40,340 nucleotides of DNA from Butyrivibrio sp. Its GTDB lineage: Bacteria; Bacillota; Clostridia; Lachnospirales; Lachnospiraceae. Every line of letters begins with the position of its first letter. Position 1 is the stretch's first letter. Under the pieces are notes generated by a model that saw nothing but the letters and a program-made list of their open reading frames with translations, made no database searches and was not told where the DNA came from. Location of the stretch: positions 1 through 40,340 of the forward strand of contig NZ_JAGAYD010000158.1 in assembly GCF_017940685.1 (NCBI RefSeq). Reading direction: 5' to 3'. Position numbers and translations under genes: made by a program. Positions 11,406 through 34,213 of the stretch are shown one piece after another.

Positions 11406-11433
11406 TGTGGGACATAAAACATGTAATCCGTAA
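11406..11433 (-). promoter_or_regulatory. bipartite element motif, minus-strand copy
   Basis: Read on the minus strand: TTACGGATT (11425-11433), 9 nt, then ATGTCCCACA (11406-11415). It matches the rightward copies except for one base in the left half and a spacer shorter by one. It lies 28 nt upstream of the first recombinase start. Confidence 0.66.
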
Positions 11434-11474
11434 CGGGAAATACAATTTTTGTGTAAAAAATTCTAAATCACAAG

Positions 11475-11680
11475 AGAGCATAACTTGAAACACATAAAAT
11501 ATGCTCTAAACAATAATAAAGCATATAGAGCAGTATATGTCAATAGGGAAATATGCTTTAGAGTGAAATAGAGCATATTATGTTAAATGATAATTAATAT
11601 AATAAATCAACATAAAGCACATTATTCTTGAAAACGACTGTGCTTTATAGTAAAATACAATCTGTACTATTGTGCTATTT
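11475..11680. promoter_or_regulatory. cluster of operator half-sites in the divergent control region
   Basis: The 318-nt gap 11378-11695 holds no gene. It contains at least eight copies of (A/T)(A/G)AGCA(T/C)A: AGAGCATA 11475-11482, TATGCTCT 11500-11507, AAAGCATAT 11518-11526, ATATGCTTT 11551-11559, AGAGCATAT 11570-11578, ATAAAGCACA 11612-11621, TGTGCTTTAT 11639-11648 and TGTGCTATTT 11671-11680. They pair as inverted repeats; 11612-11621 with 11639-11648 is a perfect 10-bp dyad. The proximal pair overlaps the promoter of the XRE gene. Probably binding sites of that regulator; iterons of a replication origin are the alternative. Confidence 0.72.
11628..11656 (+). promoter_or_regulatory. promoter of the XRE regulator gene
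   Basis: TTGAAA (11628-11633), 17 nt, TAAAAT (11651-11656). The operator arm TGTGCTTTAT (11639-11648) sits in the spacer, which predicts repression when it is bound. Confidence 0.68.
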
Positions 11681-11695
11681 TAAGAGGAATGCTTA

Positions 11696-12406
11696 ATGCG
11701 TAGAAAAGAGTTAACAGACTATCCTTTTAATAAAGAGATGTTCAGGGAAGTGATCATAAAGGCAAGAGGAGATAGGAGCCAGGCAACCTTTTGTGAAGAG
11801 TGCGGGCTTTCTTACGCCTATATGAACCGGTATGCAAATGCAAAGAATGAGGATGCACCGACTATCAGCACCTTAAAGAAGATTGCACTTGCAACCAGGG
11901 CAGTTTCATATGAAGAGCTGCTGAACGCTGCAGGCTATAATGCAGAGAAATATAAGGATGACAGGCCTGTAGGCGTGGCAAGAAAAGATTTCTTTCATCC
12001 GGTATTTCTTGGAATGGCGAACAGTAACTATGACTGGCGGATTGAATCCAAGGGATATCAGAATAACGAGCCTTTTGAGATCATCATAGAAAGAAATGAA
12101 GTAAATAAGTGGTTCTTTGTGCCTGTAACAAAAGCGGATATCACAAAGGATGAGATCCAGAGCATCATCATGAACCAGCCGAAGTTTACGCCCGGAAGCA
12201 AGGTAAGTTTTGTGACAGATGATGCAGGTATCTTTGAAACATTAAAGGCAATCGAGCTTCCTTTAATCTCCCTGTATATATCTGTAGTAAGGGTACTGGG
12301 GCAGGAGATCATAGATGAAGTGAGCATAAAGACCAGCATCAGTACGGATATTACGATAAAAAATGAAGACAATATACGTCCATTTGCCATAGGAGAGAAC
12401 CAATGA
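11696..12406 (+). CDS. XRE-type HTH regulator with an unknown C-terminal domain
   Basis: 236 aa. The N-terminal ~75 residues hold a lambda-repressor-like HTH (SQATFCEECGLSYAYMNRYA) followed by a helix (TISTLKKIALATRAVSYEEL) that fits the XRE family. Residues 95-235 form a beta-rich domain (FEIIIERNEVNKWFFVPVT) of no family I recognise. GAGG lies 8 nt upstream of ATG 11696. The start is preceded by the cluster of dyad sites, so it likely represses itself and perhaps the divergent recombinase gene. Its stop overlaps the next ATG (ATGA), placing it at the head of a long rightward run that may reach the restriction genes. Confidence 0.76.
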   Translation: MRRKELTDYPFNKEMFREVIIKARGDRSQATFCEECGLSYAYMNRYANAKNEDAPTISTLKKIALATRAVSYEELLNAAGYNAEKYKDDRPVGVARKDFFHPVFLGMANSNYDWRIESKGYQNNEPFEIIIERNEVNKWFFVPVTKADITKDEIQSIIMNQPKFTPGSKVSFVTDDAGIFETLKAIELPLISLYISVVRVLGQEIIDEVSIKTSISTDITIKNEDNIRPFAIGENQ

Positions 12407-13062: not shown

Positions 13063-13074
13063 GGATGTGATGGT

Positions 13075-14094: not shown

Positions 14095-14189
14095 GTCCGT
14101 TTTTTAGGACACCCTATCTGCTACCATTACAGTAGAAACATAAAACACATGTAAAATCATGGGTCAGTGTACCTAACTGGAGGTAAGCT

Positions 14190-14345
14190 ATGGGAATATT
14201 TGAAGATGAGGATGATGCAATTGACGATTTTTTCATGATGGAAATGCTGGACGAAGAAGAAAAGAACGATAGGAAGAAAAAAGGGAAGGACAAAGGTCCG
14301 GATAAGGATAAAGACAAGAAAAAAGGATTGTTCGGAATCTTTTAA
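14190..14345 (+). CDS. small highly charged protein, 51 aa
   Basis: Good ribosome site (GGAGG 14179-14183) 6 nt before the ATG. The sequence starts MGIFEDEDDAIDDFFMMEML (acidic), continues with a lysine-rich middle (DRKKKGKDKGPDKDKDKKK) and ends GLFGIF. Acidic head, basic middle and hydrophobic end make it an unusual dipolar peptide. No family recognised. It is 8 nt from the next gene and so in the operon; transcription from the nuclease gene is probable across a 95-nt gap. Confidence 0.62.
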   Translation: MGIFEDEDDAIDDFFMMEMLDEEEKNDRKKKGKDKGPDKDKDKKKGLFGIF

Positions 14346-14353
14346 GGGAGTAT

Positions 14354-14791
14354 ATGAGATCGAAACCATTAAACGCGGGAACAATAGGAATAGCTATATT
14401 TAACCTCTTTGCAGCATTTATATACAGTATAGCTATTGTAGACAAACTGCATATTGAAGGTGGGATAAGGATACCGGTGCAGATTGCATTTATTATCATC
14501 TTTGGAATTTTGGAATTTATTCCAAAGATAGTAATAATTCCGGCAGGAGCCGCAGGGTTTATGAATTGCTTTACTGCATGGAGTTTGCTTGCGCATATAG
14601 GACATCCGATTGTAAGGATAATTCTTAGGATAGCTGCAATCGTAGTCTTTATACTTCTTGAGCTTTCACTGTTTACAGACGTGACACTTGAAGGAAGGGA
14701 TGAAAGCAGACCGCCTACAATACAGCAGATTAAAGCAAGCGGATATAAGAAATACACCAAAGATGGTGTTACATCATACAGGAAAGAATAA
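14354..14791 (+). CDS. four-helix membrane protein, unknown
   Basis: 145 aa with four hydrophobic segments at about 10-28, 41-60, 63-82 and 85-107, then a polar, cytoplasmic tail (ESRPPTIQQIKASGYKKYTK). GGGAG lies 4-8 nt upstream of ATG 14354. No recognisable domain. The stop is one base before the start of the following Zn-site gene, so the two are probably translated together. Confidence 0.6.
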   Translation: MRSKPLNAGTIGIAIFNLFAAFIYSIAIVDKLHIEGGIRIPVQIAFIIIFGILEFIPKIVIIPAGAAGFMNCFTAWSLLAHIGHPIVRIILRIAAIVVFILLELSLFTDVTLEGRDESRPPTIQQIKASGYKKYTKDGVTSYRKE

Positions 14792-15964: not shown

Positions 15965-18562
15965 ATGATTACATCAGATGAGATCAAAAGAAGACTGTGG
16001 AATGGAGCAAATCAGCTTAGAGGCTCAATGGATGCCAGCCGTTATAAAGATTATATGCTTGGTCTTATGTTTTATAAGTTTTTGAGTGATAAAACATTGC
16101 AAGCCTTTAAATCGGTTTCAAAATCATCTGCTATAGGCATGGAATTAGTCAAGTACTATGCTGATAATGTAAAGGCTGTTCAAAAAGATAATGCAGGGAT
16201 AGCAGATAATAAGGTGTTGAATCTTGTAAAAGACTATTTGGGATACTATGTACAGCCGGATCAGTTATACCAATCTTGGATAAATGACATCAATAATGGT
16301 GAATTTGAATTAGAAAAAATATCTGATTCATTAAATAGCTTTGAAAGAAATGTTGACGCACAAAAGGATAATGATGATTTTAAGGGATTGTTTTCAAATC
16401 TTGATCTCACTGATACAGCTTTAGGAAGCACATTAAAACAGAGAAGCGATAATATAAAAGAACTAATCCTTCTATTTGCAGATCTAGATATGGTTGAACT
16501 TCAAGAAAATGACATTCTGGGAGACGCATATGAGTACTTGATTGGCATGTTTGCTATGGAATCAGGTAAGAAGGCTGGTGAATTCTATACACCACATTAT
16601 GTGTCAGAAGTAATTGCACAGATTGCAGCAAAGTGTGCCAAGATTTCTTCGATTTATGACCCAGCTGTTGGATCTGGCTCGTTGTTATTGACTGTTAAAG
16701 GACATCTTTCCGAAGAAGATAAAAAGAATCTCCATTATTACGGACAAGAGAAGAATACAGCTACATATAACCTGACACGTATGAATCTTCTGCTCCATGG
16801 TATTCGACCTAATAAAATTGATATTAAAAATGGAGATACATTGGCGGAAGATTGGCCAGAAGATCCTAATAGACCGGGAGAAGGGATACTCTTTGATGCG
16901 GTAGTTATGAATCCTCCGTATTCGCTAAAAAACTGGAACAGTTCAAAGATAAAGGGATCAGATCCAAGATTTGAATTTGTTGACGGTATTCTTCCTCCTG
17001 ATAACAAAGGAGATTATGCATTCCTCTTACATGGATTGTACCATTTGAATAGAGATGGAGGCATAATGGGTATTGTTCTTCCGCATGGAGTTCTCTTTAG
17101 AGGAGCTGCCGAAGGCGATATAAGAAAAACACTTATAGATAAAGACTGTATTGATGCAGTAATTGGACTACCGGCAGGCATGTTCACAAATACAGGTATT
17201 CCAGTAATAGTAATGATATTGCGCAAAGATCGTAAATTCGATGAGCCTGTACTTATAATTGATGCGTCCAATGGGTACTCAAAGCAGGGAAAGCAAAACG
17301 TTCTTAGAGAACGTGATATTGCAAGGATAGTAGACACATACCTAGAAAGAAAAGAAGAAAAGGGCTTTTCACATGTTGCAACGAAAAAAGAGATTATTGA
17401 GAATGACTATAATCTAAATATTCCGAGGTATGTTGATAGTACTGTAGATACGATTGCAGAAGATGTGGATGGACATTTGTTCGGAGGGATTCCAGAGAGT
17501 AACATTGCAAATTTAACTGTTTTGAATTCTAGCGTCCCAGAAATAATAAAGAATACATTTTCAACTTTAAGACCTGGATATTTGAAAATGGAATGTGCAC
17601 CAGCTGATTTTGAGAAACAAGTCATCAATTCTGAAACGGTCACACTTAAATCCGATAAGCTTAAGAAGGAAATTGATGAATATATTGAGAAGTATTGGAA
17701 TGAAATAAAAGAGATTTCTCAAAGTGACGGTAGTGAAGCGATAGCAAAAATCAAGGATGATATGCTGAACGAAATTAAAGCTATTTTGAGTGCCTATTCA
17801 TTTGTAGATATATATGAAGGGTATCAAGTAGTGGCAGATATATGGAAAGATTCGCTTAGTCATGATGCTGGAATTATTGGAGAAAAGGGGTTTTATGAAG
17901 CAGGAAGGACTCGGGTTCCCAATATGGTAACTAAAGGGTCTGGAGATAAAAAACATGAAGAACAAGATGGATTCATAGGTGCGATTGTTCCAAATGAGCT
18001 AATTGAGAGAATTCTGTTTAAGGAAGAATTAGAGGAAATCAATCGAATTGAGACCAAAATAGCCGAGGTTGATTCTGAGATTGCAGAAATAACAGATTTT
18101 GCTGGAGATGAATCTAACGAAGATTACTCATGTTTTGCAGAATGCTTTAAGGATTCTGGGGATGAACTAGACAGAAAGAAAGTGAAGGATGCGATAAAGT
18201 CGGCGGATAAGGGAAGCCAAGAAAGAAAACTTCTTGAAACATGTGAAAAACTATTTGCGGAAAAGGCCGAGAAATCTAAGATTCAAAAGCAAAAAGAAAA
18301 GGAATTAAAGGAAGCGGTTCAAGAACGAATACTTCTTCTTACAAATGAAGAGATTGATACTATTATGCATGAGAAGTGGTTTGGAGATGTAGAAGAAGAG
18401 ATGACAAGGCTTATAGTCTTACCGCTGGCTAATGAAATAGAAATTGTAAAAGACCTTTACGACCGATACTCTGATACTTTAGACGATATAGAAAATCAAA
18501 TTAGTGCTCTTACGCAGCAAATTGAAGATTTTCAGAAAGAGTTGGTGATTGTAAATGAATAG
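15965..18562 (+). CDS. hsdM: type I restriction-modification system, methyltransferase subunit HsdM
   Basis: N6-adenine DNA methyltransferase of a type I complex (M2S or R2M2S). ATG 15965 has AAAGGTGG about 8 nt upstream; a GTG four codons earlier overlaps that site. Residues 1-150 are the HsdM N-terminal helical domain (RRLWNGANQLRGSMDASRYK), motif I is DPAVGSGSLL (about 232-241) and the catalytic motif IV is NPPY (about 316-319). At 865 aa it is some 300 residues longer than typical HsdM; the extra C-terminal part (from about 560) is rich in charged coiled coil. It overlaps hsdS by 8 bases. Confidence 0.93.
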   Translation: MITSDEIKRRLWNGANQLRGSMDASRYKDYMLGLMFYKFLSDKTLQAFKSVSKSSAIGMELVKYYADNVKAVQKDNAGIADNKVLNLVKDYLGYYVQPDQLYQSWINDINNGEFELEKISDSLNSFERNVDAQKDNDDFKGLFSNLDLTDTALGSTLKQRSDNIKELILLFADLDMVELQENDILGDAYEYLIGMFAMESGKKAGEFYTPHYVSEVIAQIAAKCAKISSIYDPAVGSGSLLLTVKGHLSEEDKKNLHYYGQEKNTATYNLTRMNLLLHGIRPNKIDIKNGDTLAEDWPEDPNRPGEGILFDAVVMNPPYSLKNWNSSKIKGSDPRFEFVDGILPPDNKGDYAFLLHGLYHLNRDGGIMGIVLPHGVLFRGAAEGDIRKTLIDKDCIDAVIGLPAGMFTNTGIPVIVMILRKDRKFDEPVLIIDASNGYSKQGKQNVLRERDIARIVDTYLERKEEKGFSHVATKKEIIENDYNLNIPRYVDSTVDTIAEDVDGHLFGGIPESNIANLTVLNSSVPEIIKNTFSTLRPGYLKMECAPADFEKQVINSETVTLKSDKLKKEIDEYIEKYWNEIKEISQSDGSEAIAKIKDDMLNEIKAILSAYSFVDIYEGYQVVADIWKDSLSHDAGIIGEKGFYEAGRTRVPNMVTKGSGDKKHEEQDGFIGAIVPNELIERILFKEELEEINRIETKIAEVDSEIAEITDFAGDESNEDYSCFAECFKDSGDELDRKKVKDAIKSADKGSQERKLLETCEKLFAEKAEKSKIQKQKEKELKEAVQERILLLTNEEIDTIMHEKWFGDVEEEMTRLIVLPLANEIEIVKDLYDRYSDTLDDIENQISALTQQIEDFQKELVIVNE

Positions 18563-19769
18563 AAAAAACACACCAAAATTAAGATTTAAAGAGTTTGAAA
18601 AAGCTGACCCTTGGGAACAGCGTAAGTTAGGAGATTTGATAAATGAGACTCGTGATAAGACAACAGTTGAAGATGAGGATACATTACTTTCTTGTGCAAT
18701 AGATGGAATGTTTCTTAATTCCGAGTTGTTCAGTCACTTTAGAGGTTCATCAAATATTGGATATTTGAAGGTCAAAAAAAATGATTTGATTTTATCAGCC
18801 CAAAATTTACATCTTGGAAATTGCAACGTGAATTTACGCTTTGAACATGGCATAATATCGCCAGCTTACAAGGTCTATGAGCTCATTGAATGTGATCCAT
18901 TGTTCATACAGGCTTGGGTAAAACAAGATAAAACAAAAGATTTCTTCTTAAAAGCTTCAACTGAAGGTGCAAGCGTTTGTAGAAAAAATATCGTTTGGGA
19001 AGAATTATATAAGCAGGAGCTACCGGTTCCTAAAATAGATGAACAAATAAAAATAGGAGCATTTTTCGAGAATATTGACAACCTTATCACCCTTCATCAG
19101 CGTAAGTATGAAAAACTAAAAAAGGTAAAAAATGCATATCTTGATGAGATGTTTCCAAAAAATGGAGAAAGATTTCCAAAGCGAAGATTTCCGGGATTTA
19201 CTGACCCTTGGGAACAGCGTAAGTTATCAGAATTAGTTGACTATAGTAATGGAACAGGGCATGAAGATTATGTTTTACCTGAAGGTAAGTATGAACTGAT
19301 AACATTAAAATCCATCAATTCAGAGGGAGAATTAGTTTCATCAGGGAAATATGTCGATGAGGAATTTGAAACATTAAAGCAAAATACCTTGATTATGATG
19401 TTGAGCGAGCAAGCAAAGGGGATGCTTGGTATGACTACTGTTATTCCTTGCAATAATCGTTATGTTTTGAATCAGCGAGTCGCTGCCTTGACATTGCATG
19501 ATAAAGTGAGTTCTAAGTTTTTAACAAAAGCTATAAACAATAAACAGTCATATTTTGAACAGATGGGTGCTGGAACTAAGGTACAAAATATATCAAGGGG
19601 TCATGTTGAGAATTGCTTGATAGAAATTCCAAAATATGATGAACAAAAGCAAATTGGTGATTTTTTTGATAATCTCGACAACCTTATCACCCTTCATCAG
19701 CGTGAGCTTGACAAACTTAAAAAACTTAAAGCAGCCTACCTTGATGCGATGTTTGTAGGAGGAAAATAA
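18555..19769 (+). CDS. hsdS: type I specificity subunit HsdS, expressed copy
   Basis: 404 aa DNA-recognition subunit that sets the bipartite target. Two target-recognition domains (TRDs) each begin WEQRKL(G/S) (residues ~21 and ~220) and end with LDNLITLHQR or the like, separated by a conserved spacer helix (KYEKLKKVKNAYLDEMFPKN) and closed by a similar C-terminal helix. At DNA level both TRDs are bounded by the same repeats (18611-18626/19082-19098 and 19208-19223/19682-19698) that flank four silent TRDs on the other strand. The gene is therefore the expression site of an invertible or cassette-exchanging system, and its sequence should differ between cells. Confidence 0.93.
   Translation: MNRKNTPKLRFKEFEKADPWEQRKLGDLINETRDKTTVEDEDTLLSCAIDGMFLNSELFSHFRGSSNIGYLKVKKNDLILSAQNLHLGNCNVNLRFEHGIISPAYKVYELIECDPLFIQAWVKQDKTKDFFLKASTEGASVCRKNIVWEELYKQELPVPKIDEQIKIGAFFENIDNLITLHQRKYEKLKKVKNAYLDEMFPKNGERFPKRRFPGFTDPWEQRKLSELVDYSNGTGHEDYVLPEGKYELITLKSINSEGELVSSGKYVDEEFETLKQNTLIMMLSEQAKGMLGMTTVIPCNNRYVLNQRVAALTLHDKVSSKFLTKAINNKQSYFEQMGAGTKVQNISRGHVENCLIEIPKYDEQKQIGDFFDNLDNLITLHQRELDKLKKLKAAYLDAMFVGGK
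18611..18626 (+). repeat. hsdS recombination repeat A, copy 1
   Basis: TTGGGAACAGCGTAAG, coding W-E-Q-R-K at the start of expressed TRD1. Confidence 0.85.
19082..19098 (+). repeat. hsdS recombination repeat B, copy 1
   Basis: CCTTATCACCCTTCATC, coding N-L-I-T-L-H at the end of TRD1. The identity to copy 2 extends upstream to GACAA. Confidence 0.85.
19208..19223 (+). repeat. hsdS recombination repeat A, copy 2
   Basis: Start of expressed TRD2. With copy 1 it is a direct repeat (identity from TGACCC onward), so deletion of one TRD is also possible. Confidence 0.85.
19682..19698 (+). repeat. hsdS recombination repeat B, copy 2
   Basis: End of expressed TRD2; downstream lies the C-terminal conserved helix and hsdR. 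Confidence 0.85.
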
Positions 19770-22700
19770 ATGAGCAATGCACCTAAAAATGCGACTGAAA
19801 AAGCATTTCAGGAAAACTTGGTAAATGAGTTACAGAAATATAGCTGGTCAGCTCCTGATGAATTAAATGGAAATCTACATAAGGTTACGGTGGAAACTCT
19901 AATAGAGAATTGGCGTAGTGAACTGAACAGAATTAATAAAAATGTTCTGGAAGGTGTCCCACTTACAGATAATGAGTTTTCACAAGTGCTCTCACGTGTA
20001 AACCAAATTAACAACAGCTATGAAGCTGCAAAGATATTGGCTGCTGAAAATGGGAAAGGTAAAATTGATGGTATCTGGCGCGATGATAACCCGGAAGTAA
20101 CAAAAAAACAAATTACACTTACAATTTATAGAAAAGCACAGGTGCTTGGCGGGGATTCTTCGTATCAAATTGCCAGAGAGGTCACTACAAAAAACAATAA
20201 CCGTTTTGATATTGTTCTTCTTATTTGTGGTCTTCCGGTTATTAATATTGAACAGAAGAGAACTGATAAAACTATAGATGAAGCATTTGGGCAGTTCAAA
20301 AGATATTATCAGGATGGTGAATATACGAATAATTTCATGGCATTTTCGCAAATGATGGTGATATGTACTGAAATTGATACAGAGTATTTTGCTACGCCCA
20401 AATCATTATCCGATTTTAATAGAGCATTTTGTTTTCACTGGACGGATAAAGATAATAATAGAATTACAGATTGGAGACAAATAGCATCAACATTTTTAAA
20501 AATACCAATGGCACATCAGATGGTAGGCGATTATCTAGTTATAAATGAGTCCGAAAAAGAAGATGAAAAATGCCATATGGTAATGCGCCCATATCAAGTA
20601 TATGCTCTTCAGGCAGTGGAATTGGCAGCCACAGGCCAAGACGGGAAATGTGGAGGCTTTCCTCATGGCGGTTTTATTTGGCATACAACCGGATCAGGAA
20701 AGACTATAACGAGTTTTAAAACAGCGTTATTTTTATCAAAAAGAGCAGGTTTTGATAAGGTTGTATTCCTCGTTGATAGAAGAGAACTAGATACCAATAC
20801 TTCGACAAGATTTAAAGCTTATTCCGCATATGAGTCTGTGAAAGTGGATGATACAAAACATACTTATCAATTAAAAAAACATCTTATGGCAGGTCATAAT
20901 GGAATAGTAGTTACAACAACTTTTAAGCTGAATGCATTAGTAAAAGATCTTCTTGAAACGTCTGATCATGCACTTAATGAGAAAAAGTTTGTTTTCATCA
21001 TAGATGAAGCCCATAGAACAACGATGGGAGACATGATGGTGACAATTCAAAAATTCTTTAAGAAGAATGGTCTTTTCTTTGGTTTTACCGGAACGCCTTT
21101 ATTTGATGAAAATAAAGCTAAGGGAAAGGTAAATGAAAAGAGTGAATTGATCAATACTACTGAAAAGCTATTCGGGCCCAAACTTCATCAATATACTATC
21201 GATGAAGCAATAAGAGATAGAAACGTTTTGGGATTCCATGTAGATTACATAAATACTGGTGAGTTTAAAAGTTACGAAGATTTACGAGATAAGCTTGTTG
21301 AAGCAATTATAGAGGAAAAGCCAGATGAAGACTTAAGAGATGTAGAGCACAAGGTACAGGCTTTGTCAGAACTTGATGTTGAAAAAGAGAGTAGTAAGAG
21401 GAATGTGTTTGTTTATCAAGATGAGACGCATATCCCTAGAGTTGTTTCAGAAATCTTGAATTCCTGGGAAAAACAATCGCAGCATCGTTTCTTTAACGCA
21501 ATACTTACTACTGGTAAGATAAGTAGGGCGATTGCTTACGCAGAAGAATTTCAGAAACAGCAAAAGCATGTGGATGATCCGATTCATGTGGCTGTGACTG
21601 TGAGTTTTGGAAATGAAAATGATACTGATAATGAAGCAAGAAAGTTTGCAGAGAGAATTTTTGAGTATTATTATGCATTCACAGGGATTAAATTTGCTCC
21701 AGGAGATTCTAAACATGGGGAATCTCAATATTTTGAAGATTTAGTTTTAAGGACAGCAAGAGGAGGAAGTGGACGAAACGAAAAAAATATTGATTTAGTA
21801 ATTGTAGCAGACCAGATGCTAACGGGATATGATTCTAAATATCTTAATACATTATATGTTGATAGAAAACTAGAATTGCAAGGACTTGTACAAGCGTACT
21901 CTAGAACGAATAGAATATATGGTGAAGCCAAAGAATTTGGAACAATTATTAATTTTATATATCCCCGTATGACTAAAGAAGCGGTCGATGAAGCCTTAAA
22001 ACTATATGGAAGCGGAGGAGAGAGTTCTCCGGCTATTGTTGATACATATGATGTTGCGGTAGGAAAACTAAATGCATTACTAAGCGATATGTGTAATGAA
22101 CTGCAAGATCCGGCAGATTGGATAAATATAAAAGATGATGAGGATGCAAAGAAAAGATTTGTAATTTCATATAAGAGGGCAGCAATACAACTAAATGTTG
22201 TTTCTCAGTATTATGAGTATAAATGGAATGATAAAACTTTTGGAATTGATGAGCATACGTGGATGAAGTATACTGGCGCATATAAAAACTTGACGCATGA
22301 GACACCAGTTGATCCGCCACCTGTTGTAATTCGACCACTTCCAGGTAAAACAAAACTTGTGGGAACACAAGTGATTAATGCCGCTTACATTATAAATTTG
22401 ATTGGAGAAAAAACTACAGTTAGTGGAAACGCAAGAATTGTTGATGATGAATCCTTACGTCTAATCCTAGAGCAGATTCAGGAATTATCGAACTTAGGAG
22501 AGGCAGAACATGCGAAACTTCTTGAGGAATTTGTAGAAGACATAAAAAATGGAAAAGTTGAAGCGTCAAAACCTATAGATGAGTCATACGAATTATGGAA
22601 GAATAATGTATTGAAACATGAAATAGATGATTTTGCTTCTGAATGGGGAGCGGATGCTAATCTGCTATATAATTCCCTTATGTCATATTCAAATCTTGAA

Positions 22701-22853: not shown

Positions 22854-22875
22854 CTGATGTTATGTGAGTTTTTTG

Positions 22876-22911
22876 AAAAAGCTTGTAGGTGTAATGACCT
22901 ACAAGCTTTTT
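22876..22911. terminator. bidirectional terminator between hsdR and the integrase gene
   Basis: Perfect 15-bp stem AAAAAGCTTGTAGGT (22876-22890) / ACCTACAAGCTTTTT (22897-22911) with a 6-nt loop; A and T runs on both sides allow use in either direction, which suits the convergent genes. Confidence 0.92.
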
Positions 22912-22943
22912 ATATATCCATCATCGGCGCAGAGATATATTGC

Positions 22944-23879: not shown

Positions 23880-23916
23880 ATGTAAGTCCTCCTTTTCTGC
23901 TGATAATACATACGCC

Positions 23917-23933
23917 GATGAAGGGTGATAAGG
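23917..23933 (-). repeat. hsdS recombination repeat B, copy 3
   Basis: GATGAAGGGTGATAAGG on the plus strand, inverted relative to copies 1 and 2; the most integrase-proximal site, 38 bp before the integrase start. Confidence 0.85.
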
Positions 23934-24406
23934 TTGTCGATACTTACAAGAAATGCTCCCAATTTCTTCTGTTCATCAAAACATGGTAACATTAAATCAA
24001 AATCAGACAGTGCTTCCTTAGTAATTGTTTTAATTGTTCCGCCTGGTGCTTTTCGTGCTTCATCAATAAACTTTTCCTTAATGATATACGCCCAAAATGT
24101 TTTATCGATGTCTTGATTATATCTATCAAAAATAAGAACTGTTCTATCAACAAATGCCCCATATTGCGTGATTGCAACACGTCCAATGCTTCCTTGAAGT
24201 GTAACTAATACTGAACCTTTATCAGCAAAAACACTCATTGGTTGAGCAAGCTTACTAATCTTTTGCTTGGTATCATCTACCAACTTCATATCATCTGCAA
24301 CGTCGGCTACTTGTACAAACGGCATAGCCTCTTCTCCGTCATACCATTCCTTATTTCCATATGGCTGAGGAAAAGAACCTCGTCTGAATCCTGCGCACTC
24401 TGATAA

Positions 24407-24422
24407 CTTACGCTGTTCCCAA
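24407..24422 (-). repeat. hsdS recombination repeat A, copy 3
   Basis: CTTACGCTGTTCCCAA on the plus strand; 5' end of silent TRD T6. Confidence 0.85.
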
Positions 24423-24441
24423 GAAGGGTTTATAGGTGTGA

Positions 24442-25605
24442 CTATCGCTGATGAAGGGTGATAAGGTTGTCGAGGTTTGAAAAATACTCCCCGATTTTAA
24501 TCTGCTCATCTATGGATTTCGGAATAATCATATCCGTATCTTGAAGAGCTGACTTTGAAATTGAAGTAACTTTTATTCCCTGCATCAACGGTTTTAGCTG
24601 ATTGTGATATGCAGGAGAATTGATATAGTATCCCAAGAACATCGGACCATATTTTTCCTTTGGACGACAAGCTATCGTATGAAGTCCAGACAGGAGCTTC
24701 ATTCCTTCGGAGCCCCGTATTTCTGTACATTTGCCAACAGTATCATCCTCTGCTGTATCTGCGATTATAATGTCCCCATCTTGCAAAAATGAGTTCTTAA
24801 ACTTATCAGCTTTTGCATCATCGGATATGTACGGCAGCTCAGTTTGGGAGGCATCAATATAGTCTCCAAACTTTATCAGAACATCACCGTAATGCACATT
24901 CTTTATTGTTCCGCTCTCATAGTTCAATTCTGCTCTCGATAAGGTATTATTCTGCAATCCATCAAAGACTGAAACAAACTTACGCTGTTCCCAAGAAGGA
25001 GTAGAATTATTTGTTTTTTGAAGTGCAAAAGCAATAGGGGTGTAGTTGTGCTTACACTGATGAAGGGTGATAAGGTTGTCCAACTGACGTAAATAATATG
25101 AAATTTTTTGTTGTTCCTGAATAGAAGGAAGATTTATTTTAATTCCCATAAACTCATCAAAACTGATATTTAATAAACCATCCATTCTTGCTCCAGATGA
25201 AATAAGCTTTGCAAGTTCTCGATCAGGAATCTTCGTAGAAAAATAGTATTCTATAAAACTAGCATCAGCATCTATCATTCTAAAACTATGATAAACCCTT
25301 GGTACAAGCGCTTCTTCGTATGATTCAAGTGAAAATACAGTGCCATATTTGGCAAGCTTTGAATTTCCATGATTATATGAAAGCTCACCTTTATGAAGTA
25401 ATGTATAGTTCTTTTGTTCTTTACCAGCTATATTTCCAGAAAATCTATCTTCTTGGCTCATCCAACCATTTGCTGCAGAAATAGTAAGTGTTGGCAAATC
25501 CATTCTGCCATCATTTCCCTGAACTCTTTCTGATACCTCGCCAAGCTTACGCTGTTCCCAAGAGAGATTAGTAGCATGTCTTTTTGAAAATGAGGCGAAA
25601 TACAT
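24442..25605 (-). CDS. silent hsdS gene with two TRDs (T4, T5)
   Basis: 387-residue reading frame beginning MYFASFSKRHATNLSWEQRK, one base after the stop of the preceding cassette. TRD T4 (25561-25059) and T5 (24994-24450) are each bounded by repeats A and B and joined by HNYTPIAFALQKTNNSTPS instead of the usual spacer helix. It stops directly after the last repeat (LITLHQR), so the C-terminal conserved helix of HsdS is missing. No ribosome site or promoter is visible; I regard it as a TRD store, though low-level translation of an almost full-size HsdS cannot be excluded. Confidence 0.84.
   Translation of the reverse strand: MYFASFSKRHATNLSWEQRKLGEVSERVQGNDGRMDLPTLTISAANGWMSQEDRFSGNIAGKEQKNYTLLHKGELSYNHGNSKLAKYGTVFSLESYEEALVPRVYHSFRMIDADASFIEYYFSTKIPDRELAKLISSGARMDGLLNISFDEFMGIKINLPSIQEQQKISYYLRQLDNLITLHQCKHNYTPIAFALQKTNNSTPSWEQRKFVSVFDGLQNNTLSRAELNYESGTIKNVHYGDVLIKFGDYIDASQTELPYISDDAKADKFKNSFLQDGDIIIADTAEDDTVGKCTEIRGSEGMKLLSGLHTIACRPKEKYGPMFLGYYINSPAYHNQLKPLMQGIKVTSISKSALQDTDMIIPKSIDEQIKIGEYFSNLDNLITLHQR
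24450..24466 (-). repeat. hsdS recombination repeat B, copy 4
   Basis: End of silent TRD T5; 27 bp separate it from repeat A of T6. Confidence 0.85.
24979..24994 (-). repeat. hsdS recombination repeat A, copy 4
   Basis: Start of silent TRD T5; the next codon is Phe instead of Leu (WEQRKF), so identity ends with AAGTT. Confidence 0.85.
25059..25075 (-). repeat. hsdS recombination repeat B, copy 5
   Basis: End of silent TRD T4. Confidence 0.85.
25546..25561 (-). repeat. hsdS recombination repeat A, copy 5
   Basis: Start of silent TRD T4 (WEQRKLGEVSERV). Confidence 0.85.
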
Positions 25606-25610
25606 TCACC

Positions 25611-25627
25611 GATGAAGGGTGATAAGG
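25611..25627 (-). repeat. hsdS recombination repeat B, copy 6
   Basis: Shares GATGAAGGGTGATAAGG but lacks the flanking TTGTC found in the other five copies (reads GATTC), which may lower its use by the integrase. Confidence 0.8.
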
Positions 25628-26103
25628 GATTCAAGCTTTGTAAGAAATGTTCCAATTAGCTTTTGCTCTACTATATCTTGTGGCATTGATATAGGCATCT
25701 CGTTAAAGATTTTATCTGTGATAGCAAATCTATCAGAACGGGCACCAGAGTTCCCATTAAACCTCATAAATGAATGCCAACACGTTGTCTGAAAGTACCA
25801 TTCCAAGTAGCTTAAATCGATATCATAAGGTCTAAATACATAGTAAAGCGGAGACATTGCTCCTGTTCTTTCCAGCTTGTTTCTTTTAATAGGTCCAAAT
25901 GGAGCTGTTGCGGAAATACGAGGGTTATACACAAAATCATCTGGCTCCACAACATAATATCCATCTATATTTTCGGCATTAGCAATATCTTTTTCAAAAA
26001 AGTCTCTCTGAGAGATAATTCCAAACTCTGCAGAATTTGTGAATACCTCATCAACTACAGCATCTTGATTTTTCTTAGTTACCTTATTAGATATTTCACC
26101 TAG

Positions 26104-26119
26104 CTTACGCTGTTCCCAA
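26104..26119 (-). repeat. hsdS recombination repeat A, copy 6
   Basis: Outermost copy, start of silent TRD T3; marks the right edge of the invertible locus. Confidence 0.85.
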
Positions 26120-26196
26120 GAACAACTTATTTTAAAGTATATTTTTGATACTATTTTTAGAGCATATTGGCGTTTTCTGCGTGCCTGCGTAAGTGT

Positions 26197-26247
26197 TGAC
26201 GTCAAAATGACGCCATGAAAGATTAAGGGTGACGCCGAAATGACGTC
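26197..26247. repeat. TGACG half-sites on an 11-bp lattice
   Basis: TGACG begins at 26197, 26208, 26230 and 26241, offsets 0, 11, 33 and 44. The units TGACGTCAAAATGACGCC (26197-26214) and TGACGCCGAAATGACGTC (26230-26247) are direct repeats with complementary differences. Probably a multi-site protein-binding array at the left flank of oriT. Confidence 0.7.
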
Positions 26248-26315
26248 GCTCTTTCTTTTTGCCTATTTTTCTGTACGCTGGGGTCATAGGGCACTCCCTG
26301 TTCCGGATGCCATAG

Positions 26316-26362
26316 GCAGACGGTCTGCGTAAAGTTAGCCTGCAACTTTAGGCGTATCCTGT
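26316..26362 (+). other. predicted origin of transfer (oriT), IncP/MOBP type
   Basis: A short dyad GCAGAC-G-GTCTGC (26316-26328) is followed by the perfect inverted repeat TAAAGTT (26330-26336) / AACTTTA (26344-26350) with a 7-nt loop, and five bases later by TATCCTG (26355-26361) and T. TATCCTG followed by a pyrimidine is the nick core of RP4-type oriTs (nick after G), and an inverted repeat just 5' of it is the usual relaxase-binding site. A MOBP relaxase and a MobC-like protein lie in the downstream operon. Predicted nick between 26361 and 26362 on this strand. Confidence 0.76.
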
Positions 26363-26436
26363 TATTCTTTTTTTCTTGTTTTTCATAATTTCTGTCCGGG
26401 GTCGTACATGCCCTATTTTTCAGGGGTTCAAGGTGG

Positions 26437-26608
26437 TACGGCACCGTATTTTCCCAAAATTCATTTTTACAGTTTTATAAGGCCTGTTTTTAAAGGCTGT
26501 ACGGACGCGTACAACCCAGTATTTGTGCGGCTTTGAGCCTGTTACGGGTGCGTATTTTATGCCGTCTTAAAGCAGGGAGATTATACGGGTGCGTAGTACG
26601 GGAGCGTA
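26437..26608. repeat. five TACGG(N)CGTA palindromic repeats upstream of the mobilization operon
   Basis: TACGGCACCGTA 26437-26448, TACGGACGCGTA 26500-26511, TACGGGTGCGTA 26543-26554 and 26584-26595, TACGGGAGCGTA 26597-26608. All fit TACGG-N2-(G/C)CGTA-like. A TATAAT at 26617-26622 lies just downstream with no -35 box, and the last repeat covers the -35 position, so a protein bound here could activate transcription. Iteron-like; they could also be part of oriT. Along with the features at 26197-26362 and the bipartite motif at 26628-26656, this fills the 483-nt gap 26206-26688, in which I see no gene. Confidence 0.74.
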
Positions 26609-26627
26609 CAGATTTTTATAATGATTG

Positions 26628-26656
26628 TTTCGGATTTGCTTTCAGTATGTCCCACA
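26628..26656 (+). promoter_or_regulatory. bipartite element motif, copy upstream of the mobilization operon
   Basis: TTTCGGATT (26628-26636), 10 nt, ATGTCCCACA (26647-26656); followed by TATAGGTAGAA and the ribosome site. 32 nt before ATG 26689. Confidence 0.85.
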
Positions 26657-26688: not shown

Positions 26689-28065
26689 ATGGATTACGCA
26701 GTGCTTAAAAAAATAGCAGAGTACTCAGATGTTTATGAAGTGGCGGCTCTTGGGATTAGCTCTGTAGAAGAAATGAAAGCAGCCTTAAAAAAGAAAGGGG
26801 CTACTGGTGGAACCTTTCAGAGAAGAACGGAGTACCTGACAGGGCAGCCTGCATATATCTCAATAAACGGAGATGAGCTGTCATATGACTACCAGACTTT
26901 GGCAGAGGATCTTCAAACATTGACAGAAAAACTTATTCCAAAGGGCTATGGGCAGGATTCTGAACAGGAACTGGAAGAAGAGATTGAGATGCTAAAAAGG
27001 CAGATTGCTGATCTGACATCTGAGCTGCAGGAGTACTCACAAAAGATTACGCAGCAGGAAGATTATATTAGCAAGCTTAAGGCAGAGCTTTCAAAGAGGG
27101 CTGGGGGATCCTTAAAGACAGAACTGGAAAGAAAAGTACTTGTGGCAAGCAGCATATCTGTGGGTCCAAAGGTGCATCCATCAGACGAGTGTTTCCTTGT
27201 GGATCCTGACGAGTTATTGGATGTAGATGCTTGTGTTGCAAGGTATGGCGGAGAGCTCGATTCTTTCTATGAAGAGATACCGACAGATACCGAAGATGCA
27301 GGATTTGAGCCGGGGCATGAGCTGACAGAGAAAAATCATGCACTTCGAACAATGAAGACTGTGGGAACAAAAAGGTTCTTTTCAAAGAGAGTCAGGGATA
27401 ATGCTGAGGTCAAGAAGGTGGAATCAAGAGTAGGGCAGTTATTCCCGGCGCATGGGGATGGTAAGAGTGAGCGTCAGAAAGAGAGGGATAAGATTCTCCG
27501 CAACAGATTTATTTCCTTAAATAACATTATCAAGTCAGACAGGCTTACCAATCAGGAAAAGCTCATGATGTATGCCATGAACTCTGAGTATCATAACACG
27601 CATATTGAGAGGCTTTTGACATATGCCGGGGCTCATTGTATCAATGCAGATTTCCTTATTTATATATTGGAAGATCCGGATACCTGCTCAACATATGAAA
27701 ATACAGTGGCATTCTTAAGCCAGTTCGCAGATGCAAGCGAGTATAGGATGAAGCTCAATCTGGCTCGTGAACTTATCGAGGGAAAGTGGTATATCACAGC
27801 AGACTATAACGGACGAAAGACAAAGTTTCAGCTTGTACCCATTGATGAGATCAATGAACTTCGTAAAGCAGTAGGTCTTCCAATAAGTAAGTATTCTTAT
27901 AAGGAAGAAGAGGAAGATGATCCTTTCCCTGACGATGTAGAAGAGGAAGTACCTAAGAAGCCGGATTTTGTTGAAGATATTGCTCCCGGTTCTTATGGCG
28001 ATATTGATATTCCCGATGATGGATTTGAGATGCCGCCAATGGACAATGAGGAATTACCTTTTTAA
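26689..28065 (+). CDS. leading-region protein with coiled coil and SSB-like C-terminal peptide
   Basis: 458 aa, first gene after oriT; AAAGGAGG lies 7-14 nt upstream. Residues 1-85 are a small folded part, about 90-135 a coiled coil (LEEEIEMLKRQIADLTSELQ), about 260-400 a helical domain (RNRFISLNNIIKSDRLTNQE) of no known family to me. A long acidic, Pro-rich tail ends FEMPPMDNEELPF: acidic residues capped by Leu-Pro-Phe, as in the C-terminal peptide of single-stranded-DNA-binding proteins (DDDIPF/DDDLPF) that recruits RecQ, PriA and other replication proteins. No OB fold is apparent. A role in single-strand DNA handling after transfer is inferred. Confidence 0.68.
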   Translation: MDYAVLKKIAEYSDVYEVAALGISSVEEMKAALKKKGATGGTFQRRTEYLTGQPAYISINGDELSYDYQTLAEDLQTLTEKLIPKGYGQDSEQELEEEIEMLKRQIADLTSELQEYSQKITQQEDYISKLKAELSKRAGGSLKTELERKVLVASSISVGPKVHPSDECFLVDPDELLDVDACVARYGGELDSFYEEIPTDTEDAGFEPGHELTEKNHALRTMKTVGTKRFFSKRVRDNAEVKKVESRVGQLFPAHGDGKSERQKERDKILRNRFISLNNIIKSDRLTNQEKLMMYAMNSEYHNTHIERLLTYAGAHCINADFLIYILEDPDTCSTYENTVAFLSQFADASEYRMKLNLARELIEGKWYITADYNGRKTKFQLVPIDEINELRKAVGLPISKYSYKEEEEDDPFPDDVEEEVPKKPDFVEDIAPGSYGDIDIPDDGFEMPPMDNEELPF

Positions 28066-29080: not shown

Positions 29081-29108
29081 TTTCGGATTAGGGCTATGCA
29101 TGTCCCAC
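29081..29108 (+). promoter_or_regulatory. bipartite element motif, copy between radC and the 96-aa gene
   Basis: TTTCGGATT (29081-29089), 10 nt, ATGTCCCAC (29100-29108), placed 8 nt after the radC terminator, so transcription must restart here. Confidence 0.85.
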
Positions 29109-29154
29109 TAACCTTATGAGAACAATCAAAGGCGCTTAAGAAGGGAGGTATTTA

Positions 29155-30406: not shown

Positions 30407-30422
30407 AAATATTTGTTTTGCA

Positions 30423-30451
30423 TTTCGGATTAGGAAGATACATGTCCCACA
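30423..30451 (+). promoter_or_regulatory. bipartite element motif, copy before the DUF5688-like operon
   Basis: TTTCGGATT (30423-30431), 10 nt, ATGTCCCACA (30442-30451), then AATAGGATGAAAGG; 50 nt upstream of ATG 30502. Confidence 0.85.
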
Positions 30452-30501
30452 AATAGGATGAAAGGAAAAAATCCAGCACACAAAGATAAGGAGGTAGCGA
30501 T

Positions 30502-31639: not shown

Positions 31640-31650
31640 GGAGTAAAGGT

Positions 31651-32019
31651 ATGGAGATTACAGATATCAGAATGAACCTGCTTGATAATGCAGGCGGTGT
31701 AAAAGCCATCGGAAGCTTTTCGCTTGATAATGCATTTGCTGTCCGTGGTATGAGAGTCATGGAGGATAAGAAGGGCAGAAATTTTGTTGCCTTTCCCTCC
31801 AGAGAACGTGCAAACGGTGAGTATGAAGACATTGCTTTCCCTCTTAGCAAAGAGTTCTATCATGAGATCACCGATGCCATTATGAAAGAGTTTCATCGTA
31901 AGCAGGAGGAAGTTGCCCAGGAGGCTCAGGACAAAAGCCACAATCAGGATGAGTCCAAAGGTCAGGAGCAGACTCAGGCGGAAGATGCAGCTAAGCCCCA
32001 TAAGGGACGTGGACGATAA
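31651..32019 (+). CDS. SpoVG-family protein (first paralogue) with disordered basic tail
   Basis: 122 aa. Residues 1-85 show the SpoVG fold pattern (MEITDIRMNLLDNAGGVKAI, then FAVRGMRVMEDKKGRNFVAF and PSRE). SpoVG proteins bind nucleic acids and act as regulators in Firmicutes; paralogues are often found on plasmids. A Gln/Glu-rich tail ends AKPHKGRGR. It is 11 nt downstream of the DUF5688-like gene and 14 nt upstream of a second SpoVG-like gene. Confidence 0.82.
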   Translation: MEITDIRMNLLDNAGGVKAIGSFSLDNAFAVRGMRVMEDKKGRNFVAFPSRERANGEYEDIAFPLSKEFYHEITDAIMKEFHRKQEEVAQEAQDKSHNQDESKGQEQTQAEDAAKPHKGRGR

Positions 32020-32033
32020 GGAGGATCCTTGTT

Positions 32034-32288
32034 ATGCAGATTTCCGAAGTGAGGCTTAAAAAGAGGGATGGTGATGATAAGTTCCTTGCCAGTGGTTCCA
32101 TCACCTTTGAAGGAATGTTTGTTGTATCCGGTATCAAGGTTATGAGAGCAAAAAGCGGAGACCTTTTTGTGGCATATCCTTCATGGAAGAACTCAGATGG
32201 GGAGTACAAGGATGTATGTTTTCCTATGACAAAGGCTCTTCGAGAGGATATCAACATGCAGGTGCTTTCCAAGTACGAGGAGCTTTAA
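32034..32288 (+). CDS. SpoVG-family protein (second paralogue)
   Basis: 84 aa; AAGGAGG at 32018-32024 precedes ATG 32034. The pattern MQISEVRLKKRDGDDKFLAS, then FVVSGIKVMRAKSGDLFVAYPSW is SpoVG-like and comparable in length to the classic protein. Tandem SpoVG copies suggest a heterodimer or a duplication. It is followed at once by a strong terminator that abuts the relaxase ribosome site. Confidence 0.82.
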   Translation: MQISEVRLKKRDGDDKFLASGSITFEGMFVVSGIKVMRAKSGDLFVAYPSWKNSDGEYKDVCFPMTKALREDINMQVLSKYEEL

Positions 32289-32297
32289 GATGTAAGC

Positions 32298-32328
32298 GGG
32301 GCTGCCATAATAGGCGGCCCTTTTTTTT
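32298..32328 (+). terminator. terminator directly before the relaxase ribosome site
   Basis: Stem GGGCTGCC (32299-32306) / GGCGGCCC (32313-32320), then eight T (32321-32328). The next bases are GGAGG and the relaxase ATG at 32339. Confidence 0.9.
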
Positions 32329-32338
32329 GGAGGTATTT

Positions 32339-34195
32339 ATGGCAAAAGGTATTGTTGCAAAAATCTGGAATATAAAGGATGGATCAAAGGGAAGAGGAGC
32401 CGGAGCACAGATTTCAGATTCCATTGACTACATAACAAATAGCGAAAAATGTGATGAAACTTTGGGAGGAAGCCAGGCTCAGATAGGAAGGGAGCTTACC
32501 TATGTCACAAATGATGTAAAGACATTGGAGGGGCTTTATGTCGGATGCCGCAATATCTCAGACATTAAGAATGCTACAAATGAAATGATGCAGGTAAAGG
32601 AGTTTCATGGAAAGCTTGGAGGCAGGGTAGCACTCCACGGCATTATATCTCTTGATGCAGCAGAGTCGGATAAGAAGAATGCTGGGAAACTTATGATGCT
32701 TCTAAATGACCTTTTAGAGGAGATATTTCCAAATAATCAGGCGGTATATGCAGTGCATACCAATACAGAAAACCTTCATATCCATTTCATATTAAATACC
32801 GTAGGGCTTGGTGGTAAGAAGATTCATATGGATAAGTCTTTTATGAGTAAGGTGTTTGATCCGGCTCTTAACAGGCTTGCTGAGAAGTATGGTTTTACGC
32901 CAAATGAAGCTTGGGTAAAGGAAAAGCAGGAGGATAAGGTTTCTTTCGGAGAGAGAGTAGTTAAGCTAAGGCAGGCCGTTGATGAGGCAGTAGAGCGGTC
33001 TGAGGATTTCGAGGAGTTTTTAAAAGACTTAAAAAAACAGGGAATCGTGGTTAATTGTGGAAAATATCTAAGTCTTAAGGCAGAGGGAATGACAAGAGGT
33101 ATTAGAAGCTATCGGCTTGGTTCTTTGTATACAGTTGAGGCAATCAGAGACAGGATCCTTAATAAGCGAGAGGAATTGATACGAAGCGAAGTCGGAGAGC
33201 ATGTAGGAAGAAAGAAGGACCCTGCAACAGTCTTTGTAAAGACATCTCCGCTAAAGAAGTTTAAGGATATGTCAGAGGATGAAAAAAAGGAATGCATTAG
33301 GGCTTTAAAACTTGGCAGGAATCCTTGGAGAGAAAGGCAGGAGTCAAACTGGCAGCTTCAAAGGCTTTCTGATGAGTTTAGGCGCACGGCGGGTGTATAT
33401 GAGCTTATAAGGGTATATGCGCCAAATACCGGTAATGCTCAGGATGCCTTGGATAATATTGTAGCCAGGCAGAAGGAAATAGCAGCAGAAAAGAAGGCTG
33501 TCAGGGAAAACCTAAAGACCTATCAGCCAATCATAAGGCTCTACAAGGAGATAAAAAAGTATGCAAGAAAAGCGTACCTATATGAGTTTGCTGCCTGTGA
33601 TGAGTATTTATCTTCCTACATGGAATATAAAAAGCTCTGTGAAAGATTAGAGAACGGATATGGAAAGAGCGTTCTTGAAGTATCTGCCTATATTGAAGAT
33701 CAGGAGAATCAGATACTTTATGCCACGGCACAGTCAAAGGAGCTTTCTGATGAATATAAAACTATTTTGAGGTTCAAGGAAAATGAGCTCAAACAGGGCA
33801 TTTCAGAATATACATCCCTTTATGATGCAATCGGCTTTTCAAAGGCAAGGACGAGAGCCATGCAGATGGGTGTTTTTGAGAGCTGTATAAAGTTCATTGC
33901 AGCGGATGGAGCTGACGGGGCATACATAAGAGTTGTTATTACACCGGATATTATTGACGGGAAACGTACTGAAAAGGCTATTGTTACTGTCTTTGATAGA
34001 TCAGGGAAACAGTTATCTGAGATTTCTTCAAAAGACATGTCTATAAAAGACTTTAACCGTAGCATCTCAGAACTAAAAGCAGAGTACGGATTATATAAAT
34101 GCCATTCATTTGATAAGAGGGAGGATGCAGAGAGCTTTGTAGAAAAGCAGCAGGAAGAAAAAGCGAAAAAAGTAAGACGCCAGGTTTCGGATTAG
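32339..34195 (+). CDS. MOBP-type relaxase
   Basis: 618 aa. Nicks oriT and pilots the transferred strand. ATG 32339 is 5 nt after GGAGG (32329-32333). Motif I tyrosine is Y31 in SDSIDYITNSE; motif III HTNTENLHIHFILN supplies H140, H147 and H149 for the metal; LHGIISLD (about 99-106) matches the conserved strand before it. The C-terminal 350 residues form a helical, partly coiled-coil region. The predicted nick sequence at 26355-26361 is the type this family uses. The stop region carries the left half of a bipartite motif that serves the next operon. Confidence 0.88.
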   Translation: MAKGIVAKIWNIKDGSKGRGAGAQISDSIDYITNSEKCDETLGGSQAQIGRELTYVTNDVKTLEGLYVGCRNISDIKNATNEMMQVKEFHGKLGGRVALHGIISLDAAESDKKNAGKLMMLLNDLLEEIFPNNQAVYAVHTNTENLHIHFILNTVGLGGKKIHMDKSFMSKVFDPALNRLAEKYGFTPNEAWVKEKQEDKVSFGERVVKLRQAVDEAVERSEDFEEFLKDLKKQGIVVNCGKYLSLKAEGMTRGIRSYRLGSLYTVEAIRDRILNKREELIRSEVGEHVGRKKDPATVFVKTSPLKKFKDMSEDEKKECIRALKLGRNPWRERQESNWQLQRLSDEFRRTAGVYELIRVYAPNTGNAQDALDNIVARQKEIAAEKKAVRENLKTYQPIIRLYKEIKKYARKAYLYEFAACDEYLSSYMEYKKLCERLENGYGKSVLEVSAYIEDQENQILYATAQSKELSDEYKTILRFKENELKQGISEYTSLYDAIGFSKARTRAMQMGVFESCIKFIAADGADGAYIRVVITPDIIDGKRTEKAIVTVFDRSGKQLSEISSKDMSIKDFNRSISELKAEYGLYKCHSFDKREDAESFVEKQQEEKAKKVRRQVSD

Positions 34196-34213
34196 ACCAA
34201 GGTGTGTCCCACA
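34185..34213 (+). promoter_or_regulatory. bipartite element motif, copy before the CpaF-like operon
   Basis: TTTCGGATT (34185-34193) overlaps the relaxase stop codon; 10 nt on, GTGTCCCACA (34204-34213), then TAAAGGGTAGAAAGGAGG. 23 nt before ATG 34237. Confidence 0.85.

Follow-up and report, generated by a model that had tools for sequence, protein, structure and literature searches.

What kind of signal is a two-block motif that stands five times in one stretch of Butyrivibrio DNA, and what reads it? The stretch (assembly GCF_017940685.1, contig NZ_JAGAYD010000158.1, 40,340 nt in full; hereafter the window, or contig C281) is part of a large integrative and conjugative element (ICE) that continues on contigs C280 and C172. 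An earlier reading of the window alone (the sequence-only reading) had taken the motif for a regulatory site that ties transfer, pilus-like and recombination genes together. Judged by sequence comparison, the motif is very probably the promoter of an ICE family of gut bacteria, placed before its transfer genes and differing in sequence from lineage to lineage. We consider it likely that this ICE-wide core promoter is read by a very divergent sigma70-like protein of 342 amino acids (aa) encoded at the right end of the element.

The search pattern TTTCGGATT-N10-ATGTCCCACA was expected 0 times in 100 dinucleotide shuffles of the window, and its four plus-strand copies stand at the positions and with the sequences originally given. 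Copy 1 (26628-26656, no mismatch) is preceded by an A/T tract at about 26612-26620 on the same strand and ends 32 nt before the start codon of 26689-28065, the head of the mobilization operon. Copy 2 (29081-29109, one mismatch, ...CACT) lies directly behind a terminator-like hairpin (by eye), 45 nt from the start codon of a 96-aa open reading frame (ORF) that is followed by an ArdC-like gene. Copy 3 (30423-30451, no mismatch) is 50 nt from its start codon and precedes a 42-aa ORF (30502) and the DUF5688, two SpoVG and relaxase genes. The stop codon of the relaxase gene (34193-34195) lies inside copy 4 (34185-34213, one mismatch, GTGTCCC...), which stands 23 nt before the ATG at 34237 of a CpaF/T2SSE-like ATPase (34204-35478, plus strand). 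For copy 5 (11406-11433), 28 nt before the start codon of the first tyrosine recombinase (10271-11377, minus strand), the minus strand and the 9-nt gap were described correctly, but its left half is also changed, to TTACGGATT, which had gone unmentioned. All five distances fall within the proposed 23-50 nt.

Allowing up to three mismatches, the whole genome (G000) gave 10 matches and the backward pattern none. Copies outside the window lie on contigs C280 (221 and 9354), C172 (82, and a degenerate one at 23587) and C246 (569); the copy at C172:82 is a duplicate of the C280 end (C280:9354), and a match at C134:7066 with three mismatches is probably due to chance. The contig order was taken from a nearly identical element of Pseudobutyrivibrio ruminis CF1b, with which roughly 70 kb including cargo are shared. 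Genes of the ICE encode a MobA/VirD2-type relaxase, ArdC, DUF5688, two SpoVG, CpaF/T2SSE ATPases, VirB4, VirD4, an NlpC/P60 protein and three consecutive tyrosine recombinases, of which the first is headed by copy 5. The full copy at C280:221 heads a Flp-like pilin gene (named by eye), that at C280:9354 heads a second type IV secretion system (T4SS)/pilus operon with T2SSE and T2SSF proteins, and the C246 copy precedes unnamed small ORFs. Together with the mobilization, ArdC, DUF5688/relaxase, CpaF and recombinase units of the window, these operons make up an element-wide set in which a single motif heads genes for mobilization, relaxase, pilus-like, T4SS and recombinase proteins, and this supports the regulon idea.

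We aligned 22 non-redundant copies to define the anatomy of the motif. Near-identical copies of one locus (e.g. L042, L087:7412) and four non-Lachnospiraceae matches were left out, as were class-B variants (ATATGCC), L075:8017, the G397 copy (L119) and other weaker matches. The order was always an A/T tract, TTTCGGATTAG, 7-8 nt, RTGTCCCACATA and TTATGAAAGG. TTTCGGATTAG occupies positions 1-11 and is followed by an unconserved spacer, RTGTCCCACATA lies at 20-31 and the weaker TTATGAAAGG at 34-43, after which the sequence is purine-rich; positions 4-9, 21 and 24-28 are invariant, the gap is 9 or 10, and conservation extends to about position 43. Upstream, a AAATTTTTT tract lies at -16..-8 and a second, weak A/T peak at -26..-21. 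T makes up 95 of 132 letters at -13..-8 as against 197 of 726 further upstream (p about 1e-26 if the copies are treated as independent). By eye, 21 of the 22 copies are followed in the same orientation by a gene, a gene fragment or a plausible ORF, the G120 copy (L032) having only a doubtful ORF.

This anatomy is that of a promoter class: two conserved blocks at a spacing constant within 1 nt, in one direction (by eye), before operon heads. Taking TCGGAT for the -35 and CACATA for the -10 gives a spacer of 17 nt, or 16 in gap-9 copies. The motif had been described as two halves, the right one with a TGT-N3-ACA dyad, yet a dyad operator is unlikely, as the profiled copies share one asymmetric order and the spacer may lose one nucleotide; the dyad itself is missing from the differing motifs of related ICEs (by eye). 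The asymmetry, the shortened spacer, the A/T tract at fixed distance and the conservation to about position 43 fit a core promoter better than a two-half operator. TTTCGGATTAG would then be the -35 block, RTGTCCCACATA the -10 block and the AAATTTTTT tract, which we take to resemble UP elements, an UP-like element; the predicted transcription start lies near the conserved TGAAAGG. The motif would thus be the core promoter of an ICE-wide transfer regulon. A sigma-A promoter inside the motif was rejected, its hexamers not fitting by eye, in agreement with the sequence-only reading; nor is the motif known to fit an alternative-sigma consensus sequence.

If one element-specific protein reads all promoters of an element, these are expected to evolve in concert, independently of the operon that each heads, and this was the pattern found. 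Using the CpaF/T2SSE-like ATPase of the window as query, we found 12 genomes among 397 of the family (own included) at E 1e-60 or better. The CpaF proteins of G103, G197, G350 and G050 are 72-80% identical to that of the window, but a profile search with the window's motif gave no match in these four genomes. Instead, each carries between relaxase and CpaF another two-block motif, repeated before similar operon heads. G197 has four copies (before the 26689 homologue, ArdC, DUF5688 and CpaF), after which its contig ends; G350 has five, none before ArdC; G103 has six, two of them before the pilin gene and one before the sigma-like gene, with none found before ArdC and DUF5688; G050 has two (CpaF and relaxase). 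A further ICE, in G720, has six (26689 homologue, ArdC, DUF5688, CpaF, pilin and second T4SS/pilus operon). No copies occurred on the opposite strand of the examined stretches of G720, G350, G197 and G103. The motif families share a skeleton, with A at position 27 and a similar distance from -10 to GAAAG (by eye).

We compared 20 core positions in 26 copies from five ICEs, leaving out the window ICE's gap-9 recombinase copy and degenerate sigma copy, one G103 pilin copy (65660) and both G050 copies. Mean identity within an ICE was 94% for the window's (6 copies), 100% for G720 (6), 75% for G103 (5), 98% for G350 (5) and 95% for G197 (4), as against 32-57% between ICEs (ten pairs). Copies before the same operon were no exception: 43% for window and G720 (n=6), 55% for window and G103 (n=4) and 29% for G720 and G103 (n=4). 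Since the motifs are uniform within an ICE and different between ICEs, an element-specific reader must have changed with them; the reader would be a factor that diverged together with its promoter.

Our candidate is the 342-aa protein encoded at the ICE right end (G000:C172:23637-24662, outside the window; L080:7960-8988 in CF1b). We built a sigma profile from ten sigma factors of G000, G103 and G299 and compared it with the profiles of 27 ICE ortholog groups. The right-end protein came top with a score of 39.8 over 184 columns, the runner-up reaching 23.9. With six sequences from five lineages, a SigA/FliA profile gave a score of 42.2 over 175 columns, and the profile of all ten factors gave 40.0 over 181 columns. 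The alignment runs in order through sigma2 (HKFNNP..YSIDAFVRART), sigma3 (KKIMAALHMENG..VEDI) and the start of sigma4. Among 300 shuffled profiles none came near the real score (maxima 19-26, top 25.7), and the reversed profile scored 15.

The position of the gene is consistent with this candidate. The gene lies beyond the last pilus/T4SS operon in all six ICEs assembled that far (G000, G299, G300, G103, G350 and G720). Of seven genomes, five have a motif copy in front of it, namely G000 and G321 (degenerate), G299, G300 and G103 (with its own motif), so that induction would feed back positively. Homologues occur in 7 of 397 family genomes (whole in G000, G103, G122 and G350, split in G321, partial in G199 and G292), in 3 of 16 genome handles (G299, G300 and, partial, G303) and in 5 of 387 genomes of the order (G000, G557 at the CF1b place, G350, G720 and, partial, G292), these sets overlapping. 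CF1b and SIG346, which have the motif in common, encode right-end proteins that are 83% identical; identity to those of G103, G350, G122 and G720 is 18-24%. The split gene of G321, a relic, still stands behind its degenerate promoter copy. No sigma-like relative was found in IMG/VR. We infer that it is a working sigma factor reading this motif.

A number of observations weigh against this assignment. The hhalign probability for the right-end protein against the sigma profiles was only 59-69%; when SigA, the SigH-like set and the ECF set were used singly, each gave less than 1%, and FliA by itself gave 31%, although a known true pair, the ECF set and SigA, also reached only 26%. Single sequences gave no match, and the aligned region stops at the start of sigma4, leaving the promoter-reading helix-turn-helix (HTH) of sigma4 outside. 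Pfam, NCBIfam, PHROGs and PDB profiles yielded no sigma model above cut-off; the only curated matches were PF12645 HTH_16 at E 0.25-0.57 and, for one homologue, an NCBIfam sigma model at E 0.024. No motif copy precedes the gene in G350 and none was recognised in G720, where its frame (L208) is broken near the start; in G321 the frame is split (L106, L170). At E 0.001 no homologue was found in G197 and G050, whose motif-bearing ICE contigs are incomplete, or in G301 and G302, where the ICE contig stops before this point. None was found in G310 and G311, which have ICE fragments, or in the genomes with solitary or satellite copies (G080, G120, G168, G397, G304-G309 and G312), and G292 and G303 gave a weak partial match only. 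The solitary and satellite copies need a helper or are relics. Covariation with the motif is also seen for the protein of the 26689-28065 gene, which follows copy 1.

Exact matches to the motif come almost entirely from Lachnospiraceae. An exact scan of the GTDB collection (84,980 species, gaps 9-11) gave 37 matches in 33 stretches, 28 of which belong by record title to Lachnospiraceae, Butyrivibrio, Pseudobutyrivibrio or Agathobacter, many from ruminants. One more is Clostridiales, with a locus nearly identical to a Lachnospiraceae one, and four singletons (Pseudomonadales, Oscillospiraceae, Proteobacteria, Nitrosotalea) lack the extended consensus (by eye). The sequence-only reading had named equal numbers of matches within coding regions of unrelated genomes as evidence against it; the scan instead shows the concentration in Lachnospiraceae elements that it expected. 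Several genomes carry 4-7 genuine copies on one strand. With up to two mismatches, 26 of 299 other family genomes matched as against 7 of 299 for the backward pattern, mostly by chance, and a profile model found strong copies (E < 1e-4) in 6 of 397 family genomes, G080 having only a class-B variant. Of the weak profile matches (E 0.001-0.01) only that in G321, the promoter of the relic sigma-like gene, was followed, weaker ones being judged by eye. IMG/VR had no exact match.

In several genera that lack the ICE, the motif is present as solitary copies. Copies outside the ICE head genes for tyrosine integrases and for a MobV-like relaxase, 26689-like genes accompanied by a serine recombinase, toxin-antitoxin pairs, a replication-like gene, remnants and unnamed small ORFs, names being assigned by eye except for the 26689 family. 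A variant class, TTTCGGATT..ATATGCCACATA, has longer conserved flanks (by eye; L102 1510-1538, L059 2996-3023, L074 minus strand); it lies near a MobV remnant and toxin-antitoxin genes, twice upstream of a normal copy. The right half ATGTCCCACA also stands alone, without a left half, at 40188-40197 at the contig end of the window, before a TnpV-like gene (by eye), and does so in SIG346 as well.

Among these carriers are small integrative elements in which the motif of the window heads integrase, MobV-like or 26689-like genes. The 26689-28065 gene itself (plus strand) encodes 458 aa, with a variable N-terminus, a coiled coil (by eye) and a conserved C-terminal domain. A similar gene is common to the window's ICE and two small elements with the same motif (L091 and G307), which further contain a serine recombinase (by eye) and an upstream conserved block. 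That non-coding block, at about 26197-26600 upstream of copy 1, is conserved at 72% over 405 nt and 68% over 195 nt in the two elements and contains the invariant string GCGTATCCTGTTAT, which resembles MOBP nic regions. It is a probable origin of transfer (oriT), and the two elements look like cases of oriT mimicry combined with promoter mimicry. Since no sigma-like match was found in the L091 and G307 genomes, such satellites would depend on a helper ICE, and small elements with the same promoter would be switched on together with it.

The 26689-family protein is itself a possible reader or co-regulator; as reader it would be an element-encoded activator that would bind the motif and recruit host sigma-A polymerase. 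Its gene is the first behind copy 1 and the only ICE-similar gene seen near the motif in G307 and G309 (L091), where no sigma-like gene was found. In the C-terminal part of the protein (141-395), elements with the same motif show 71-83% identity, as against 29-39% between different-motif ICEs. The N-terminal part, HTH-like by eye, is however only 25-34% identical even between same-motif elements, and the protein shows no likeness to sigma factors (0.1-0.3%). The gene is shared along with the oriT-like block, which suits an accessory protein of the relaxosome better than a reader, and where the motif covers everything from -35 to -10 there is hardly space for a sigma-A promoter besides it; we regard such an activator as unlikely. 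A master activator of the SetCD/AcaCD type, acting near the -35 of ordinary sigma-A promoters in ICE and satellites, is less probable again. SetCD and AcaCD regulons have FlhC/FlhD-like activator genes in the element, whereas Pfam scans of 59 proteins (39 from the window and 20 from CF1b, small ORFs being partly covered) gave no FlhC/FlhD-like match. The motif is without a sigma-A -10, and the MerR/TipAS protein (3397) and the M78/HTH protein of CF1b both lie outside the part shared with SIG346. What speaks for such an activator is that one site is common to ICE transfer genes and small-element genes, for which the reports on these systems (PMC4344509, PMC4207636) provide precedents.

Solitary copies in several genera without the ICE would agree with a regulator or sigma factor encoded by the host. 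This is very improbable given that the motif is rare and changes with the ICE lineage: strong copies occur in only 6 of the 397 family genomes, one of them the class-B variant, and the nameable neighbours of copies are mobile-element or toxin-antitoxin genes (partly by eye). Finally, a cis-acting RNA leader in the 5' untranslated regions, riboswitch-like or protein-binding, might account for the long conserved stretch before start codons, and a 4-bp GGAT/GTCC pairing is possible in most copies. We give it the smallest chance of all, as folding yielded four weak pairs at -2.2 kcal/mol without covariation, there was no relevant Rfam match, the pairing is not kept in the motifs of other lineages (by eye), and some copies lie directly behind terminator-like hairpins (by eye). 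The distance to the first mechanically called ORF of at least 60 aa, which varies from 6 to over 600 nt, also speaks against translational control. Two further proteins were rejected as readers. The ECF sigma factor of CF1b (L079:1029-1547) cannot be the general one, being encoded in cargo that RGIG9047 lacks at the corresponding place, where 0.8 kb separate the flanking blocks. The HTH_3 protein 11696 has matches in 9 of 34 genomes, at 86-100% identity only in six ICE genomes (G000, G299-G302, G310) and at 27-37% elsewhere, including a 37% relative in G292, and it has operator-like repeats of its own nearby.

Returning to the sigma-like reader, we favour on balance, with limited confidence, the wider proposal that each lineage of this ICE family runs its conjugation genes on a private, orthogonal sigma-promoter pair with up to seven promoters co-diverging, that there is no cross-activation between co-resident ICEs and that satellites become mobile by copying both code and oriT of one particular lineage. 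T4 gp55 and SPO1 gp28 are phage-encoded, hardly recognisable sigma factors that redirect host polymerase; they are genes of lytic phages, whereas here conjugation genes are concerned. The closest precedent is SigN (ZpdN) of the Bacillus subtilis plasmid pBS32, which activates its own expression and reads a two-block promoter that recurs in front of many of the plasmid's operons (PMC6751061). Both cases combine a sigma or sigma-like factor encoded by a mobile element with a repeated two-block promoter, the factor of the ICE being a candidate. SigN is weakly homologous to ECF factors according to its authors, whereas the ICE right-end protein was not recognised by Pfam; the SigN regulon is tied to DNA damage and cell death, and the parts consulted mention no conjugation, lineage-specific promoter replacement or satellites (PMC6751061).

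In SXT/R391 ICEs and IncA/C plasmids, the master regulators SetCD and AcaCD tie transfer and mobility genes together and are exploited by unrelated mobilizable islands, according to the parts of the reports consulted (PMC4344509, PMC4207636). The same site in an ICE and in unrelated mobilizable elements, and the oriT and promoter mimicry, parallel this island mobilization. SetCD and AcaCD are, however, activator complexes, SetCD acting near -35, while here the conserved sequence looks like an entire core promoter and the candidate reader is sigma-like. By gene content the element resembles clostridial ICEs, with a CD1110-type VirB4 (632 bits, cut-off 325) and a CD1115-type VirD4 (277, cut-off 250; NCBIfam, CF1b copy), but differs from them by added Tad/CpaF-like genes, three recombinases and the private promoter set.

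In literature searches for element-encoded sigma factors, SigN was the one relevant case among the matches listed. No paper was found that combined sigma factor, integrative and conjugative, Lachnospiraceae and promoter motif, and the matches listed for the motif letters look unrelated by title. As far as these searches show, the use for a conjugation regulon, the lineage-specific promoter replacement and the satellites on the same code are new. If our reading is true, an ICE would control conjugation with its own sigma factor instead of an activator or derepression, and nature would have provided a series of divergent sigma-promoter pairs acting on the same operons. It would also offer an easy means of inducing transfer genes in rumen bacteria and a sequence code from which the helper of a given satellite could be predicted. 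A further suggestion is that mobile-element sigma factors can be too divergent for current protein-family libraries.

The ICE seems to be inserted in the tad pilus locus of its host. T2SSF genes lie at the left of the window (155-2399), and DUF5702 and A24 peptidase genes at the right in CF1b (L080 9267-12179); DUF5702-like genes also stand beside the sigma-gene relics in G321 and G199 (L106, L173; by eye). Repeats of AAATATGCTCTA and TAGAGCATA at 11497-11586, between the recombinase gene and the divergent HTH gene 11696, are likely operators of the repressor-like protein that the latter encodes. The two SpoVG paralogues of the relaxase operon (31651-32288) have similar pairs in G197 and G103. 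At positions 18555-26205 lies a type I restriction-modification locus that includes a tyrosine recombinase (22944-23879, minus strand) and several pieces of hsdS; some of its segments have the opposite orientation in CF1b, so that shuffling of hsdS probably still takes place. A 145-aa core ORF at 14354-14791 resembles a membrane protein.

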